Origin: Acidobacteriota bacterium
GTDB taxonomy: Bacteria > Acidobacteriota > Terriglobia > Acidiferrales > UBA7541
DNA: 32,198 nt
NCBI GenBank assembly: GCA_021780215.1
Contig: JAJXZD010000157.1
Location: 1-32,198, forward strand
Direction: 5' to 3'
Both the position numbers and the translations under genes were made by a program. Under the pieces are notes generated by a model. That model did no database searches and had not been told where the DNA came from. It saw only the letters and a list, made by a program, of their open reading frames with translations. Positions 1 through 16,447 of this stretch are shown in pieces (the stretch's first letter is position 1; each line of letters begins with the position of its first letter).

Positions 1-173
1 TGTACCACGCACGATTTGCACAGGCCGCGGCCGCCGCAAACGCTGGCAATGCGCACACCGTTGCGCCGCGCGCAATCGAGCAGGGTCTCTCCCGGAACGC
101 TCCGGACACGCTGCGCGCCCGGCTCGAAAATGACCTGGTAACCAGGCTGGCGGCTCGGCTCCGCCTGGCTCAT
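1..173 (-). CDS. Corrinoid-activating 2Fe-2S/ASKHA protein (RACo-type), N-terminal fragment
   Basis: Only the first 57 codons are present; the gene runs off the left edge. The translation opens MSQAEPSRQPGYQVIFEPG and contains a plant-type 2Fe-2S motif, CGGRGLCKSC, at about residues 46-55, preceded by the usual 'GETLLDCARRNGV' helix. This is the layout of the N-terminal ferredoxin domain of reductive activators of corrinoid proteins (RACo/RamA-like, DUF4445). These use ATP to rescue the inactive Co(II) form of corrinoid methyl carriers. The ATG overlaps the TGA of the upstream gene by four bases (ATGA), so the genes are probably translationally coupled. A weak GAGG lies about ten bases before the start. 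The neighbours (corrinoid protein, UroD methyltransferase, activation-domain protein) fit the role well. A generic 2Fe-2S ferredoxin cannot be excluded because the C-terminal domain is outside the window. Confidence 0.75.
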   Translation of the reverse strand, partial: MSQAEPSRQPGYQVIFEPGAQRVRSVPGETLLDCARRNGVRIASVCGGRGLCKSCVV

Positions 174-877
174 GGTGCCACGGCCTCGGCGAATACGGCC
201 CGGTGCGGGCAGCGCGCGCGGCTTTTGCACGTGGCGCAGGTTTCCTCGCGGCTCCACTTGAGCATCTTTTTCCCGAAGCCCATGACGGCGGTCACGCTCT
301 TGCGCGGCGAGAGCATGCAGGTGCCCGTGAGGGAGACGCCGATGCCGGCACCATCGGCGATATCGAGGAGCGCTTTCTGGTCGCGCAGATCGAAGTCATC
401 GTCGCCGGGGCTGAGCACGCCGCTCCAATCGAGCCCCTGGAACGATGCCTCCTCGTGAATTTGCCGCTCGAGCGCAGCGCCAAGACGATGAAGGGCCAGC
501 GTCCCGATATCATCCAGGATAACGGCGCGGAGACGATCGCCCTCAGTGAACCACTTGCTTACCTGATTTTCGAACACAGGGCCGAGAGTAAGCACAAAAG
601 CGGCAAGATGAGAGGCCCCGCGAAGCCGGTGGCCCAGCGAAGGGGCATGCATCCGCAGCCCGCCGGATACTTCCATCCATCCCGGCCCGGCTGCTATGAC
701 GTCGCGGACACCATAGCTGGCCCGTGGTTGCAGCCAGCGTTCCGCTTCCATCTGCGCGAGGATTTCAGAAACCCGCTCCCGCATGCGCGGCGAGTCCAGC
801 CGGGCGCGCCGCGCGCCCCATCCCGCGCTCACCTCTTCGAGGGTCAGCGACAGGGCCGGATTGACAATCGCTGGCAT
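170..877 (-). CDS. Vitamin B12-dependent methionine synthase activation-domain-like protein
   Basis: The product has 235 residues. It resembles the stand-alone relatives of the MetH reactivation domain that occur beside corrinoid methyltransferases and are thought to help reductive reactivation or handling of the corrinoid. Visible features are a hydrophobic core 'HLAAFVLTLGP', a conserved 'LDDIGTLALHRLGAALE' helix, the segment 'GDDDFDLRDQKALLDI', a 'TGTCMLSPRKSVTAVMGFG' segment, and a C-terminal cysteine cluster (CATCKSRARC) that could bind metal. I chose the ATG at 877 over an upstream start at 928 because GAAGG lies five bases before it and it begins seven bases after the end of the methyltransferase gene. 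The longer start would run deep into that gene. Its stop overlaps the next start as ATGA. Family assignment is from recall of motifs and context. Confidence 0.75.
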   Translation of the reverse strand: MPAIVNPALSLTLEEVSAGWGARRARLDSPRMRERVSEILAQMEAERWLQPRASYGVRDVIAAGPGWMEVSGGLRMHAPSLGHRLRGASHLAAFVLTLGPVFENQVSKWFTEGDRLRAVILDDIGTLALHRLGAALERQIHEEASFQGLDWSGVLSPGDDDFDLRDQKALLDIADGAGIGVSLTGTCMLSPRKSVTAVMGFGKKMLKWSREETCATCKSRARCPHRAVFAEAVAP

Positions 878-884
878 GAGACCT

Positions 885-2159
885 TCAGTAGACGCACTCT
901 TTGGCGAAGTCAAACATCGCCTGAACATTTTCGGATTTTGCTTCGTCCGGGATGCCGACTCCCGCGTCGAGGATCAGGCCGCCGCCCTCACCGGCGGTTT
1001 CAAACAGCTTCTTGCAGTAGTCTCGCACTTCCTGGGGCGTGCCGGCGATCAGCATGGAGGCGGGCACATTGCCGCGGATGCAGGCCGTGTCGCCCAGCAC
1101 CTTCTTCGCCTTGACCATATCGGCGCGCTCAAAGAAATAGACGCACTTGCCCCGTGGCACATCCTTGATCACCTCGAGCCGCGAAGTGCAGTCACCCTCC
1201 CACAGGACATGGGGGACCATCCCTTCCTGAATCAGTGCCAGCAGCACCCTCTGAAATTGCGGCCAGTAATAGGTGCTGAACTGCTTGGGAGACATGAATC
1301 CGTCGAGCCCCCAGTGCAGCGGAATGAAAATCATCCTCCCGCCAGCCTTCTTTGCCGCGGCAATCCCTTCCCGGGGAATCATTTCTACGAGTTTATCCAA
1401 AACCGCCACGAGGCGATCCTTGCTGCGGAACAGATCAAGCATCGCCCCTTTGGATCCCCTCAAATAATCGGCGACCACATCGAAAGGCGCATGGCTCGTC
1501 GCATGGCTGGCGCAAGGAAAACCGAGCGCCGTCAATTCCTCGATCATCCGAGCCATTGAGGCACGCATCTTCTGCATTTCCTCGCCGGCACGAATCATCG
1601 TCTCAAGGGCCCGGCGCACATCGGGCCGGGCATACACTTCCATGGAGAGCAGGATGCGGGTGTGGAGATTGACGGGATAACCCGGCAATTGAGCGAGAGG
1701 TTCCAAGGCGCGGGCCACGCGAGGGAGATACTTGTGAATCATGAATCCGGTGGGGTCTAGAAGATAATCCGCATACTCGCCGGCCTGCATATATTCGGCG
1801 TCGAGATATTGGAAGGGAACGTCCTCAGCCACTCCCGCATGCCCTGGCCATTCGAGTTGCTTATAGTCCAGGATGTCCATGGTGGGCCCGTGCGCCACCA
1901 TGGTCTGCACCGGATAATAGCCGTCGGGTTCCAGATCCACTACCGCCTTACGCACCGCTGCCGCCAGCCGGTCATAGTCATACATCGCTTCGCGGCAGGT
2001 CATTCCCGCATTGCGAGCCACCCAGAAATGAGAGAACAATATCGTCGGCAGACGGTCGGGAGTGCGAAGCTCGATGGCGTCCACAAGACGTTTCTCCCGT
2101 TCCGCGTACTGCGCGGCCGGCGATTTCTGTGCGCTCGCGCTGCTCAAGCAGGTACCCAC
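885..2159 (-). CDS. UroD-family corrinoid methyltransferase
   Basis: The product has 424 residues and belongs to the uroporphyrinogen decarboxylase (UroD) superfamily, which includes MtaA, CmuA-type and O-demethylase methyltransferases. These move methyl groups to or from corrinoid proteins, often with a zinc site. Visible signals are the N-terminal 'RLVDAIELRTPDRLPTIL' (as in UroD 'AL..E.PDR.P'), the 'PLHWGLDGFMSPKQF' stretch, and a possible metal-site region 'PHVLWEGDCTSRLEVI' near residue 335. The ending 'GGLILDAGVGIPDEAKSENV' is typical of UroD-like methyltransferases. It lies between the corrinoid protein and the activation-domain gene, so a corrinoid partner is nearly certain. The substrate is unknown; methoxylated aromatics are one guess. 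Start: GTG at 2159 overlaps the upstream gene by 16 bases. A TTG at 2147 (TTGA overlap) is an alternative. Neither has a clear Shine-Dalgarno sequence. Confidence 0.85.
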   Translation of the reverse strand: MGTCLSSASAQKSPAAQYAEREKRLVDAIELRTPDRLPTILFSHFWVARNAGMTCREAMYDYDRLAAAVRKAVVDLEPDGYYPVQTMVAHGPTMDILDYKQLEWPGHAGVAEDVPFQYLDAEYMQAGEYADYLLDPTGFMIHKYLPRVARALEPLAQLPGYPVNLHTRILLSMEVYARPDVRRALETMIRAGEEMQKMRASMARMIEELTALGFPCASHATSHAPFDVVADYLRGSKGAMLDLFRSKDRLVAVLDKLVEMIPREGIAAAKKAGGRMIFIPLHWGLDGFMSPKQFSTYYWPQFQRVLLALIQEGMVPHVLWEGDCTSRLEVIKDVPRGKCVYFFERADMVKAKKVLGDTACIRGNVPASMLIAGTPQEVRDYCKKLFETAGEGGGLILDAGVGIPDEAKSENVQAMFDFAKECVY

Positions 2160-2785
2160 CGTTTACAGAGAGACACGGCATCCATGGCGTTCAGACCGAA
2201 GGCGTCGGCTCCCGTGTAGTTCTTTACTGCGTCATCCACCTGCCCGCCACCGATCATGATCTTCAGATTATTCCGGAGTCCCTCTTCCTGAATAGTCTCG
2301 ACCGTCTTCTTCATCACGTCGAACTCCCGGGTGAGAAAGCCGCTGAGTCCGACGACATGCGGCTTGTTCTTCTTGATGCTATCAATGAAAGTTTCCACCG
2401 GCACGTCAATGCCCAGATCAATGACATTAAACCCGTTAATTTCCAGCATGAAGGTCACGATGTTCTTGCCGATATCGTGCAGGTCGCCCTGAACTGTGCC
2501 GATAATCACCGTGCCTGCCGCCGCTGACGCTTTTTGATCCTGCTTGATCAGAGGCTTGGCCATATCGCCAATGGCGCGGAGCATCTCCCCGGCGAGCATC
2601 AACTCGGGCAGGAAGTATTCCCCCTCCTCATAACGCTTGCCGACGAGCTCCATGGCTTCGCGGCAATGGCCGAGCAGAGTGACCGCATCATATCCGCTAT
2701 CGAGCATCTCCCGGGCCATGCTAACTGCCTCTTCCTCGCGCATATCGGCGATCGCTTGCACAAGTTCCGCGTGCTTGTCTCCCAC
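2144..2785 (-). CDS. Corrinoid (cobalamin)-binding methyl-carrier protein, MtaC/MtbC-like
   Basis: The product has 213 residues. It has the two-part layout of corrinoid methyl carriers: an N-terminal helical cap (about residues 1-85, with 'GEYFLPELMLAGEML') and a C-terminal Rossmann-like B12 domain. The cobalt-ligand motif DxHxxG is present as GDLHDIGKN, with Asp101, His103 and Gly106. The later 'VGLSGFLT' and 'MIGGGQV' segments match the SxL and GG nucleotide-loop motifs. It carries the methyl group between substrate methyltransferase and acceptor. Start: an upstream GTG at 2812 is open in frame, but a perfect AAAGGAGG sits seven bases before the GTG at 2785, so I use 2785. It is the first gene of the minus-strand operon and overlaps the next gene. 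Confidence 0.92.
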   Translation of the reverse strand: MGDKHAELVQAIADMREEEAVSMAREMLDSGYDAVTLLGHCREAMELVGKRYEEGEYFLPELMLAGEMLRAIGDMAKPLIKQDQKASAAAGTVIIGTVQGDLHDIGKNIVTFMLEINGFNVIDLGIDVPVETFIDSIKKNKPHVVGLSGFLTREFDVMKKTVETIQEEGLRNNLKIMIGGGQVDDAVKNYTGADAFGLNAMDAVSLCKRWVPA

Positions 2786-3000: not shown

Positions 3001-3119
3001 CTTAGTTAAGAAATATTGTAACCATCGTCGGCGCACAGCATCTAAATCAGCGCGTCCGTTCCTAGAGGTCGAATATACAGCTTTTTGTGCCCGACTTTCC
3101 CGCAAAGGAACACTCGAAG

Positions 3120-3548
3120 ATGCGAACGTCCAGGCAGCCCGCTCCTCCCGCTCCTACAGGGCGCTCCACGGGCCCGGCGCGGGATGCAGAGGCGGTTTAT
3201 TTTCTCCAGGCAGAGATCTGCCGCACGCTAGGCCATCCCCGGAGGATTCAAATCGTGGATTTGTTGTCCAGCGGCGAAAAGACTGCCTCGGAGCTGCGCG
3301 CCGTTTTGGGGATAGGAAAGGTCAATCTGTCACAGCATCTTTCCCTTCTCAAGCAAGCGGGACTGATTCAGTCCCGGCCGCGCGGACGGGAGACGCTGTA
3401 CCGCCTGGCAATCCCCGAGGTGACGGACGCTTGCCACATGATCCGCAGGGTATTGCGCGCGCGGTTACAGGAAGGATCGAGACTTGCAAAGGCTCTCCAA
3501 ATCACCAAGGCGGAGAACCAATCTCGCCGAGATATCGAGGATTTATGA
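3120..3548 (+). CDS. ArsR-family transcriptional regulator of the RND operon
   Basis: The product has 142 residues. A basic, proline-rich N-terminus (about 30 residues) is followed by a winged helix-turn-helix: 'ICRTLGHPRRIQIVDLL', then 'TASELRAVLGIGKVNLSQH' and 'LSLLKQAGLIQSRPRGRET' with the wing 'LYRL'. This is the standard ArsR/SmtB fold. The metal-sensing CVC motif in the recognition-helix region is absent ('ELRAVLGIG'), and only two cysteines are visible, so an arsenic or metal signal is not supported. It is the first gene of the operon, and its TGA overlaps the ATG of the tolC-like gene (ATGA). I chose the ATG at 3120 (AAAGGA ten bases upstream) over an in-frame GTG at 3087. It probably represses the efflux operon and possibly the divergent corrinoid genes. 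Confidence 0.82.
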   Translation: MRTSRQPAPPAPTGRSTGPARDAEAVYFLQAEICRTLGHPRRIQIVDLLSSGEKTASELRAVLGIGKVNLSQHLSLLKQAGLIQSRPRGRETLYRLAIPEVTDACHMIRRVLRARLQEGSRLAKALQITKAENQSRRDIEDL

Positions 3549-4927
3549 GCCCATGGACCATCACTCGCACCGCCCTGCTTGTCAGCCTGCTGGCCTGGGG
3601 ACTCGCGCCCGGCGCCGGAGCGCAAGAAACGTTCACCCTTGCCGCCGCGGTCCAGCAGGCGCTCCAGAGCAACCCTGAGTTCCGCAGTTCGCAGGATGCG
3701 GCGGATGCAGCGCGCGCCCGGGCGAACGAAGCGCGAGCCGGATGGTTTCCCCGGCTCGATTTCAGCCAGGGATTCACTCGGGGCGACAATCCGGTCTATG
3801 TGTTTGGAACGCTGCTGACTCAACGCCAGTTCACGCAAGCGGATTTTGCCCTGCCAAGCCTGAATACGCCGGAGCCACTCGACAATTTCCAGACGATGTT
3901 CAGCGGCCAATGGAATCTGTTCGATTCCGGACAAACCCACTTCCGTTCACAGGGTGCAAAACGGCTCAAAACCGCCGCGGATTTCGATACGGAGCAAGCC
4001 CGTCAGGACCTGATTATGGAAGCCATCCGCGATTATTACGGCGTAATGGTCGCCCGTGAGGATTGGAAGGCGGCCCACGGGGCGCTGCAAGCTGCGGAAT
4101 CCAACGAGCAGCGCGTGGAAAGGATGCATACCGCAGGACTGATCGTGGATTCCGATCTTCTGAGCGCGAAGGTCTTTCTGGCACAAATGAAGGACCGGGA
4201 AATCCGCTCGCAAAACAGCCTCGAATTGGCACAGATGACGCTGGCTCGCGTCATCGGGGAGTCTCTCACTGCGCGGCCTGAGCCGTCCGAATCACTCGGA
4301 GAACCCGCGCCTGCCTCCCGAACGCTCCAGGAATGGACGCAGACCGCTCTCGCACACCGTCCATCACTTCGGTCCGCGGAATTGCAGGCCGGGGCCGCCG
4401 CAAGCGCCACGAAATCCACGAAGGCGGAGTTTGGACCGAAGGTCGGTGTGTTCGCTGATTTCGAACGCGACGCGATGACTCTGGGCGCCGGCCCATCGGG
4501 AACGAATTGGACGGCAGGAGCGCGCCTGGATATCAATCTTTTTGCTGGCGGCGCCCAGCGAGCGCGCATGGCCGAAGCACAAGCCAATGAGGACAAGGCG
4601 CGGCACAGCCTGGAATGGCTCCAGTCCGGAGTGCTGCTCGAGGTCCAGCAATCCTATCTGGATATCTCGGCGGCAGCGCAGCGGGCCGCGGCCGCCCGCG
4701 ACGCCGTAGCCCAGGCTCAGGAGAGCCTGCATATCATTCAGACCCGTTACGAAGCGGGCCTCACCAACATCACTGAACTTCTCCGAGCGCAGACCGCGCA
4801 ACTCGAAGCTCGCACCGAATATTTATCGGCATTGCATGATTGGCAGGTGGCCCGCGCGCAACTCGAACGTTCCGCCGGTATCCTGACCGTCAGTTCCGCA
4901 CTTCTTCAAACGACGGGGGCACAATGA
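3545..4927 (+). CDS. TolC-family outer-membrane efflux protein
   Basis: The product has 460 residues, the usual size for the family. It begins with a signal peptide (MSPWTITRTALLVSLLAWG, likely cleaved after GAGAQ). Two outer-membrane efflux repeats follow, rich in long amphipathic helices. The first opens with 'FTLAAAVQQALQSNPEF'. The second contains 'ALAHRPSLRSAELQAGAAA' and later 'LHIIQTRYEAGLTNITELL', the classic C-terminal TolC/NodT signature 'Y..G...LLEL..AQ'. It forms the periplasmic-outer-membrane duct of the tripartite pump encoded by the next two genes. It starts inside the arsR stop codon (ATGA) with GAGG four bases upstream, and ends in another ATGA overlap. The substrate cannot be read from the sequence. 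Confidence 0.92.
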   Translation: MSPWTITRTALLVSLLAWGLAPGAGAQETFTLAAAVQQALQSNPEFRSSQDAADAARARANEARAGWFPRLDFSQGFTRGDNPVYVFGTLLTQRQFTQADFALPSLNTPEPLDNFQTMFSGQWNLFDSGQTHFRSQGAKRLKTAADFDTEQARQDLIMEAIRDYYGVMVAREDWKAAHGALQAAESNEQRVERMHTAGLIVDSDLLSAKVFLAQMKDREIRSQNSLELAQMTLARVIGESLTARPEPSESLGEPAPASRTLQEWTQTALAHRPSLRSAELQAGAAASATKSTKAEFGPKVGVFADFERDAMTLGAGPSGTNWTAGARLDINLFAGGAQRARMAEAQANEDKARHSLEWLQSGVLLEVQQSYLDISAAAQRAAAARDAVAQAQESLHIIQTRYEAGLTNITELLRAQTAQLEARTEYLSALHDWQVARAQLERSAGILTVSSALLQTTGAQ

Positions 4928-6143
4928 AACTGACCGGCACATACCGCGCACTTCCCCGCTCTCAGGCGGTCTTTGCAGCAGCATTTCTCTCCGCTGCGCT
5001 TGCCGGATGCGGATCCACCGCGCCGCGGCCGGAGCAGGTCGAGGCGGTGCCCGGCCTGACCGTTGAGGTTGTGCAGCCACAAACAATCCCGGACGAAATC
5101 GAGGTGCCCGGCTCTTCCATCGCTGCGGCAACAGCTCAATTGGCTGCTCGCACGACGGGAACGGTCACGCAGGTGCTCGCGCGCGAAGGGGATATCGTAA
5201 CGCGCGGCCAATTGCTCGCCCAGTTGGATGAGAGTGAATTGCTGGCGCGGAGGGACGCGGCCCGCGCCGCGCTGCAGCAAGCGTCGGCCGGAGTCGGCAT
5301 GGCAGCCCGCGGCCTGGCGGCAGCACAGGCGCAAGCGGGCATCGCCAAGAAAACGTACGATCGCTATGTCTATCTCCGTGATCAAAAATCTGTAAGCCCA
5401 CAGGAATTTGACGAGATCGAGGCAAAAAATCTCGCCGCCCAGGCCGGGTTGGCGCAGGCCGCAGCAGCCGAGCAGCAGGCAGAAGCCGCGAAGGCTGAGG
5501 CGCAATCGTCTGCGCGCGCCGCGGAAGACGTGGCCGGATATGCGCGCATTGTGGCTCCTTTCGATGGCCGAGTAGTCCGGCGCACCGTCGACCCGGGCTC
5601 CCTGGCAGCGCCGGGGATGGATCTCTTCGTCGTTGAGGACATCTCTCATTACCAGCTAAACGCAACGCTTCCTGCGGAAGCAATCGCCACGCACGGCGGA
5701 TTCACCGCGCGGGTCCGGAAGGGGTCGAAGGCGCGCGTGGAATTTGACGCTCTGCCCGGCCGCTCCTTTGAGGGAATCGTCGCCGAGCTGGAGGCCGGTG
5801 CGGATCCCCGCTCCCATACGGTGCAGGCGCGCATCAACCTACCCCGCGATTCGCAGATTCAATCCGGGCTGTTTGGCCGTGCGTGGTTCCAAAGGGGAGA
5901 GCGGCAGGCCATTCTGGTTCCGAAGACCGCCGTCATCGAGCGAGGACAGCTTCATGGCGTCTATGTGGCGGATGCCCGGGGAATCGCGCAATGGAGGGTG
6001 GTGACTCTGGGTCAGCCGTTCGCGGACCAGGTAGAGATTCTCTCCGGCGTGCAAGCGGGCGAGCAGATCGTCTCAAATCCCGGCGTGCAGGAACTTGACG
6101 GCAAGCGCGTCGGCACGGCATCGGGCGCACCGGAGGGGCGGCA

Positions 6144-6147
<4 letters not shown>
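4924..6147 (+). CDS. RND membrane-fusion (periplasmic adaptor) lipoprotein
   Basis: The product has 407 residues. The N-terminus carries a lipoprotein signal with lipobox LAGC (Cys29), so the protein should be anchored by lipid in the inner membrane facing the periplasm. After this come a lipoyl/barrel-sandwich half (about residues 75-105: '[18 protein letters not shown]', '[19 protein letters not shown]'), a long Ala/Gln-rich alpha-helical hairpin (about 105-200), the second lipoyl half ('[19 protein letters not shown]') and beta-barrel and membrane-proximal domains ('[19 protein letters not shown]'). This is the HlyD/AcrA arrangement. Start and stop are both ATGA overlaps with tolC and the pump gene. 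An earlier in-frame start at 4840 would lie within tolC and lacks a signal peptide at its N-terminus, so it is rejected. Confidence 0.93.
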
Positions 6148-9316
<3,169 letters not shown>

Positions 9317-9320
<4 letters not shown>

Positions 9321-16091: not shown

Positions 16092-16447
16092 GGGGGCGAT
16101 ACGGTTTCGACGGAAGCTGTCGCGGCCCGAAGGCATGCCGGGCGCCACCTGCCCGCAATCGGGTGGAACAACACAACTGGCAACTCCCAGTTGGCTCTCG
16201 CTGCCTAATTAAAACCTAGGTAGCGCGTCTCCCCAGGTGATGCCTGCGCGCTTGGGATGAGGCGTCATACAGCGGGCTGGCCGGCGCGTTTCGGTCCGCA
16301 ACACGCCGGTAAGATCATCGGACTAGCCGGTGGCGCGTCTTGCCCGTTCTGAGCTCCCCCCGGCGAATCTTTCGGAATGGGATAAGCATGTAGTCTTCGG
16401 GTGGCAAGGCTTCTCGGACGGGGGTTCGACTCCCCCCGCCTCCACCA
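16092..16447 (+). ncRNA. ssrA: tmRNA (transfer-messenger RNA)
   Basis: The 5' end reads GGGGGCGATACGGTTTCGAC, the strongly conserved tmRNA start. The 3' end contains the T-arm GGGGGTTCGACTCCCCC and ends CGCCTCCACCA. GGGGGCG (16092-16098) pairs with CGCCTCC (16437-16443), leaving A plus an encoded CCA. The tag frame ends ...GNSQLALAA with stop TAA at 16206-16208; the best guess for the resume codon is GGC at 16179. A helix-5-like pair (AGCGCG with CGCGCT) follows, and pseudoknot regions lie in between. It is a one-piece tmRNA of about 356 bases. It rescues stalled ribosomes together with SmpB (not in the window). Confidence 0.96.

Follow-up and report, generated by a model that had tools for sequence, protein, structure and literature searches.

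The 32,198-nt window analyzed here, which is the entire contig JAJXZD010000157.1 (G000:C63) of the Acidobacteriota assembly GCA_021780215.1, carries at its left end most of an operon that probably encodes a complete corrinoid O-demethylase module of the Mtv/Odm/Mto type, acting on methoxylated aromatics in a respiring, nonacetogenic soil acidobacterium. The operon harbors the full component set of such a system: a UroD-type, substrate-specific first methyltransferase (MT1), a corrinoid protein with a DxHxxG motif (CP), a pterin-binding second methyltransferase (MT2), and a reductive activase of the RACo type. An additional stand-alone protein, here termed ActL, has the fold of the MetH activation domain. 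This reading draws on gene content, order and conservation, on domain and fold assignments, on the missing signatures of alternative systems, and on an aromatic-degradation context in the genome. Lignin methoxyl groups are a large soil carbon pool, and most work on corrinoid O-demethylation has dealt with strict anaerobes such as acetogens and methanogens. That the full module, often linked to MTHFR, occurs in acidobacteria with oxidases and in many Proteobacteria suggests a broader path by which lignin methoxyls enter one-carbon metabolism.

All four operon genes in the window lie on the minus strand of positions 1 to 2785, where neighboring genes overlap or are separated by gaps of at most 7 bp. 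Reading leftward, the order is CP (2144..2785, 213 aa), MT1 (885..2159), ActL (170..877), and RACo, of which the window contains the first 57 codons, encoding the 2Fe-2S domain (1..173). The first 126 bases of a second contig from the same genome, G000:C158, are identical to the reverse complement of the left end of the window; a single mismatch follows, 3 bases short of that end. Joining the contigs yields a complete 619-aa RACo, with the remainder of the gene at G000:C158:2-1816, and MT2 (G000:C158:1821-2729, 302 aa), which starts 4 bp further on, completes the operon. The same gene order is contiguous in congeners, which suggests that the two contigs adjoin in the genome. The initial annotation had described the locus as a compact operon for corrinoid-dependent methyl transfer in a putative acidobacterium, and these four genes bear that out; the closest named relatives are metagenome-assembled genomes (MAGs) of Terriglobia/Acidobacteriota, one labeled palsa. 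It had also portrayed the module as having only one methyltransferase, while allowing that a second might lie beyond the left edge, and had named two refuting outcomes, a UroD protein that groups with heme-pathway UroD and a left flank without the C-terminal domain of the activator, neither of which is borne out. Both MT2 and the RACo C terminus are present on C158; with the contig edge crossed, the single-methyltransferase surprise disappears, as the module has two methyltransferases like established systems. The features that still stand out are ActL, the layout of one carrier with many MT1 proteins, and the oxidase-bearing hosts. Thus, the core is most likely a known kind of system, to which ActL adds an extra, little-described subunit.

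The CP, RACo, and MT2 assignments are each backed by several matches. The CP gene starts with a GTG codon, preceded by AAAGGAGGA, and its product carries DLHDIG as the DxHxxG motif, together with B12-binding (PF02310, 80 bits) and B12-binding_2 (PF02607, 53 bits) domains. It matches PDB 4jgi, which we take to be a putative O-demethylase CP from Desulfitobacterium, with an E value of 8e-50, and is 77 to 79% identical to the CPs of congeners. In the genome (2.97 Mb in 246 contigs, 92.8% complete) it is the single copy of such a corrinoid protein and holds the one PF02607 domain. The RACo gene, interrupted by the contig end, encodes a Fer2 domain in the window (PF00111, 29 bits) and PF14574, PF17651, and PF17650 on C158, so that the joined protein comprises the Fer2, linker, middle, and C-terminal domains; the C158 copy of RACo_C_ter is the only one in the genome. 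MT2 scores 55 bits with PF00809 and 103 bits with NF005719, and its best matches are the MetH folate domain and methyltetrahydrofolate (CH3-H4F):corrinoid-protein methyltransferases, which identifies it at the sequence level as an AcsE/MetH-like pterin-binding methyltetrahydrofolate methyltransferase. The only PF00809 proteins in the genome are FolP and MT2. Window-type MT2s (L009 1821-2729, the C158 gene; L064; L080) contain D-[LV]-T-[IV]-G in what is presumably the pterin-site stretch of MetH and AcsE, and those of the acidobacterium G091 (L061) and of Azospirillum (L107) read D-I-N-I-G / N-V-N-I-G, a variation that possibly reflects a difference in folate binding.

MT1 belongs to the UroD superfamily (PF01208, 76.7 bits), and its AlphaFold2 model, with a mean predicted local distance difference test (pLDDT) score of 94.9, resembles the UroD fold and the Methanosarcina mazei methyltransferase 4ay8. 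As the initial annotation supposed, the protein is not a heme-pathway enzyme: it scores 36.2 bits against the HemE model (cutoff, 302.95), the true HemE is encoded elsewhere in the genome (411 bits), and the tree agrees with this sequence-based assignment. Its scores lie under every MtaA/CmuA/HemE cutoff, and far under those of MtaA, MtbA, and CmuA. A demethylase with a UroD-type MT1 might instead act on other donors, such as methylated thiols or selenols, amines, or methanol; the superfamily includes S- and Se-methyltransferases, and the window operon's own context names no substrate. UroD-type S/Se-methyltransferases have a His-Cys-Cys zinc site, whereas in O-methyltransferases one or both cysteines are swapped for carboxylates or nonligands (PMC10418091). 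The HxC...C motif is missing from the window MT1 and from 104 of 105 other relatives, and Glu321, which lies outside both peptide patterns used to retrieve the relatives, is invariant in all 106 compared; these features favor O-demethylation over S/Se-methyl transfer. Also counting against other donors, the known MT1s for amines and methanol, MttB/MtbB/MtmB and MtaB, fall outside the UroD family. Moreover, obligate anaerobes are the only reported source of type 1 Mlp clusters (PMC10418091). We regard such donors as quite unlikely. CmuA-type references sought in a plasmid collection gave weak UroD/HemE matches only, and the zinc motifs of acetogen MT1s (D-X27-C-X39-C; E-X14-E-X20-H) produced one chance-like match in 108 sequences and were not used.

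The closest solved homologue of MT1 is CdmB (E 5e-31 by sequence, profile E 1e-67), from the Cdm system (CdmBCA), which shares the MT1/CP/MT2 logic of the window operon (PMC13222342). The window operon could alternatively be a haloalkane system of this kind, in which MT1 would pass the methyl of chloromethane to Co(I)-CP and from there to folate. However, in CdmB Trp and Gln take the places of His282 and Glu321 of MT1, two residues conserved in all 106 compared relatives (for His282, and likewise Asp286, the invariance is partly by selection, as both residues are part of the retrieval patterns). CdmB also occupies a separate place in the tree, on a long branch, and the MT1 paralogs described below sit in aromatic-degradation clusters. 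Finally, Cdm homologues are reported in anaerobes only, and CdmB was itself characterized as close to O-demethylases (PMC13222342). Collectively, these observations make a Cdm-like function very unlikely.

The genome context points to methoxylated aromatics. In addition to one CP and one RACo, the genome holds five MT1-like proteins, two of which adjoin tannase/feruloyl-esterase genes; one of these two also adjoins a lignostilbene-dioxygenase-like gene (562 bits; model cutoff, 800). Elsewhere the genome encodes an intradiol dioxygenase and a LigM equivalog (758.7 bits; cutoff, 580), and within the genus LigM scores above the cutoff in each of the six genomes that have MT1, compared with 6 of 14 lacking MT1 (counts not corrected for relatedness). 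This paralog context and LigM, combined with the missing HxC...C motif and the differences from CdmB, favor O-demethylation of methoxylated aromatics. The substrate, which the initial annotation called unknown, is thereby narrowed to a probable class. The LigM equivalog (vanillate/3-O-methylgallate O-demethylase) is clustered with two MetE-type proteins on the minus strand of G000:C77 (L057 6807-14236), and a second, partial GcvT-type copy is found on G000:C123. Near MT1 paralogs of the type found on contig C171 are a flavoprotein resembling AprA/FrdA and a protein resembling 4Fe-4S ferredoxins (L010 5245-7723, G000:C171; L066 8806-10994, G083:C48), which possibly form a reductive partner of this MT1 type. 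Directly downstream of another paralog are pyrroloquinoline quinone (PQQ)-type dehydrogenase-like proteins with cytochrome c parts (L059 2880-4778, G000:C18; Pfam), and similar proteins, assigned from sequence only, lie downstream of the complete operon of the congener G078 (L064 12757-16917); a link to alcohol oxidation is possible.

Several points weigh against an O-demethylase for methoxylated aromatics. The window operon has no aromatic-degradation gene directly adjacent to it, the best solved MT1 homologue, CdmB, is a haloalkane enzyme, and Co(I) chemistry is unusual in a host that uses oxygen. The join of C63 to C158 is based on a 126-base overlap. In addition, the MT1 tree does not include the characterized MtvB, OdmB, VdmB, and MtoB.

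Conservation among relatives supports a common core. Three congeners (G077, G078, and G068) carry CP-MT1-ActL-RACo-MT2 as one contiguous run of genes, with a broken MT1 reading frame in the G068 assembly; in a fourth congener, G080, the operon is interrupted by a contig end. G083 harbors CP-ActL-RACo-MT2 without MT1, and a C171-type MT1 is located ~2.7 kb away, while a different MT1, of the C143 type, lies divergently beside CP in both G080 and G068. These arrangements indicate a core of CP, ActL, RACo, and MT2 around which MT1 looks exchangeable, as judged from gene neighborhoods. The C171-type paralog is 51% identical to a Moorella stamsii protein and 49% identical to a Desulfofundulus MT1. 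When named genomes were scanned and the genes mapped, the module also turned up in Beta-, Gamma-, and Alphaproteobacteria, among them Azospirillum sp. TSO22-1, a cultured strain whose operon has six genes, and a Sulfuritalea MAG. Proteobacterial operons often start with an MTHFR gene, as does that of G091, whose MTHFR carries a DUF5981 (MetV-like) domain; MTHFR at the operon head in these lineages supports CH3-H4F as the product. An amidohydrolase gene follows MT2 in G091 (L061 3464-4657, PF01979), Azospirillum (L107 10583-11758), and Aromatoleum (L101 8502-9758), the latter two assigned by sequence similarity.

The host is not an acetogen. No PF03598 match, the signature of acetyl-CoA synthase, is present in the 92.8% complete genome, which contains four COX1 matches (heme-copper oxidases); together these gene contents indicate a nonacetogen that probably respires oxygen. 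The genome also has no PF02219 (MTHFR) match and no MetH signature, and it encodes MetE-like proteins. The module could, then, be mainly anabolic, supplying with LigM the cell's CH3-H4F for methionine synthesis via MetE-type enzymes, a role compatible with O-demethylation of methoxylated aromatics. Consistent with such a role, PF02219 is missing, the operon CP and MT2 (with FolP) account for the PF02607 and PF00809 domains of the genome, MetE-type proteins adjoin LigM, and canonical MTHFR is absent from 10 of 12 LigM-bearing genomes of the genus compared with 3 of 8 others. However, the Fisher test gives p = 0.06 with relatedness not corrected, and the genome is 93% complete. Moreover, congeners without MT1 have also lost MTHFR, G077 and G078 hold both MT1 and MTHFR, and the MTHFR at the start of operons in other lineages suggests oxidation of the methyl group. 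A mainly anabolic role is therefore unlikely. The related proposal that the module replaces MTHFR in the genus is not supported for the module itself, given the MTHFR loss in congeners lacking MT1 and the uncorrected p value of the LigM association.

ActL is recognized by none of the Pfam and NCBIfam models. By sequence it matches PDB 1j6r (Thermotoga maritima TM0269) with an E value of 3e-6 (profile E 4e-16), and its AlphaFold2 model, built from 25 sequences, has a pLDDT of 89.8; all 19 Foldseek matches below 1e-3 are MetH structures, with 1j6r at 5e-11. The predicted structure thus has the MetH activation-domain fold. Compared with the MetH reactivation domain and TM0269, ActL is alike in fold and weakly alike in sequence, but it is a separate protein that is always found beside RACo. 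It also lacks the S-adenosylmethionine (AdoMet) motif RxxxGY, which is present in the 1j6r chain: none of 25 ActL sequences has Arg or Tyr at the corresponding positions. Instead, ActL contains a C-terminal CX2CX5C motif whose three cysteines are invariant in the same 25 sequences and which perhaps carries an Fe-S cluster, a zinc site being, by sequence, equally possible. These features suggest that ActL acts as an AdoMet-independent helper of RACo. A search of open-licence papers found no description of an ActL-like protein in O-demethylase systems. ActL poses the question of how cells that use oxygen maintain active Co(I), and of why they retain a MetH-like activation fold next to RACo.

From these data we infer the following reactions. 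MT1 would bind a methoxylated aromatic, probably derived from lignin or tannin, whose ether methyl would be attacked by Co(I)-CP, yielding the phenol and CH3-Co(III)-CP. MT2 would then transfer the methyl to tetrahydrofolate to form CH3-H4F. Carrier accidentally oxidized to Co(II) would be returned to Co(I) by RACo, using ATP and its 2Fe-2S cluster and assisted by ActL, whose role may be to dock or to relay electrons rather than to remethylate with AdoMet. A single CP/ActL/RACo/MT2 core could serve the several genomic MT1s, each with a different substrate.

Comparison of this module with the Mtv (Moorella), Odm/Vdm (Acetobacterium, Desulfitobacterium), and Mto (Methermicoccus; PMC8630106) systems reveals that all combine, in one cluster, a UroD-type MT1, a small CP, a pterin-binding MT2, and a RACo-type activase, and that all transfer, or are predicted to transfer, the methyl to a pterin C1 carrier. 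In contrast to these systems, the window host lacks acetyl-CoA synthase and has heme-copper oxidases, the extra ActL is always beside RACo, and one carrier stands alongside five MT1-like proteins. LigM/DesA of Sphingobium achieve the same net chemistry, from aromatic methoxyl to CH3-H4F, but are single proteins of the GcvT family that employ no corrinoid and are unrelated in sequence. In Stordalen Mire peat, metatranscriptomics showed that Acidobacteriota express genes for methanol and methoxylated-compound demethylation (PMC10805028); beyond that study, searches of open-licence papers found no direct description of corrinoid O-demethylases in Acidobacteria or Betaproteobacteria. A more far-reaching and doubtful proposal is that the modules of respiring nonacetogens (Terriglobia; Beta-, Gamma-, and Alphaproteobacteria) form a distinct O-demethylase class, with CP/ActL/RACo/MT2 as a hub for interchangeable MT1s. 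ActL would here be a CX2CX5C iron-sulfur form of the MetH reactivation domain, one that no longer uses AdoMet and instead docks the carrier for RACo or relays electrons to it, and in the genus of the window host methoxyl-derived CH3-H4F would feed methionine synthesis in place of MTHFR.

Divergent from the operon, the plus strand of the window encodes a regulator of the ArsR family and, behind it, efflux genes resembling TolC, HlyD, and AcrB (3087-9320). The ArsR-family gene (3087-3548) was considered as a regulator of the operon and rejected, as no such gene is seen upstream of CP in congener loci; more likely it belongs to the efflux genes behind it. An Rfam scan of the window revealed no riboswitch ahead of the operon, and its sole match is a tmRNA gene on the plus strand at 16092-16447 (RF00023, 172 bits).

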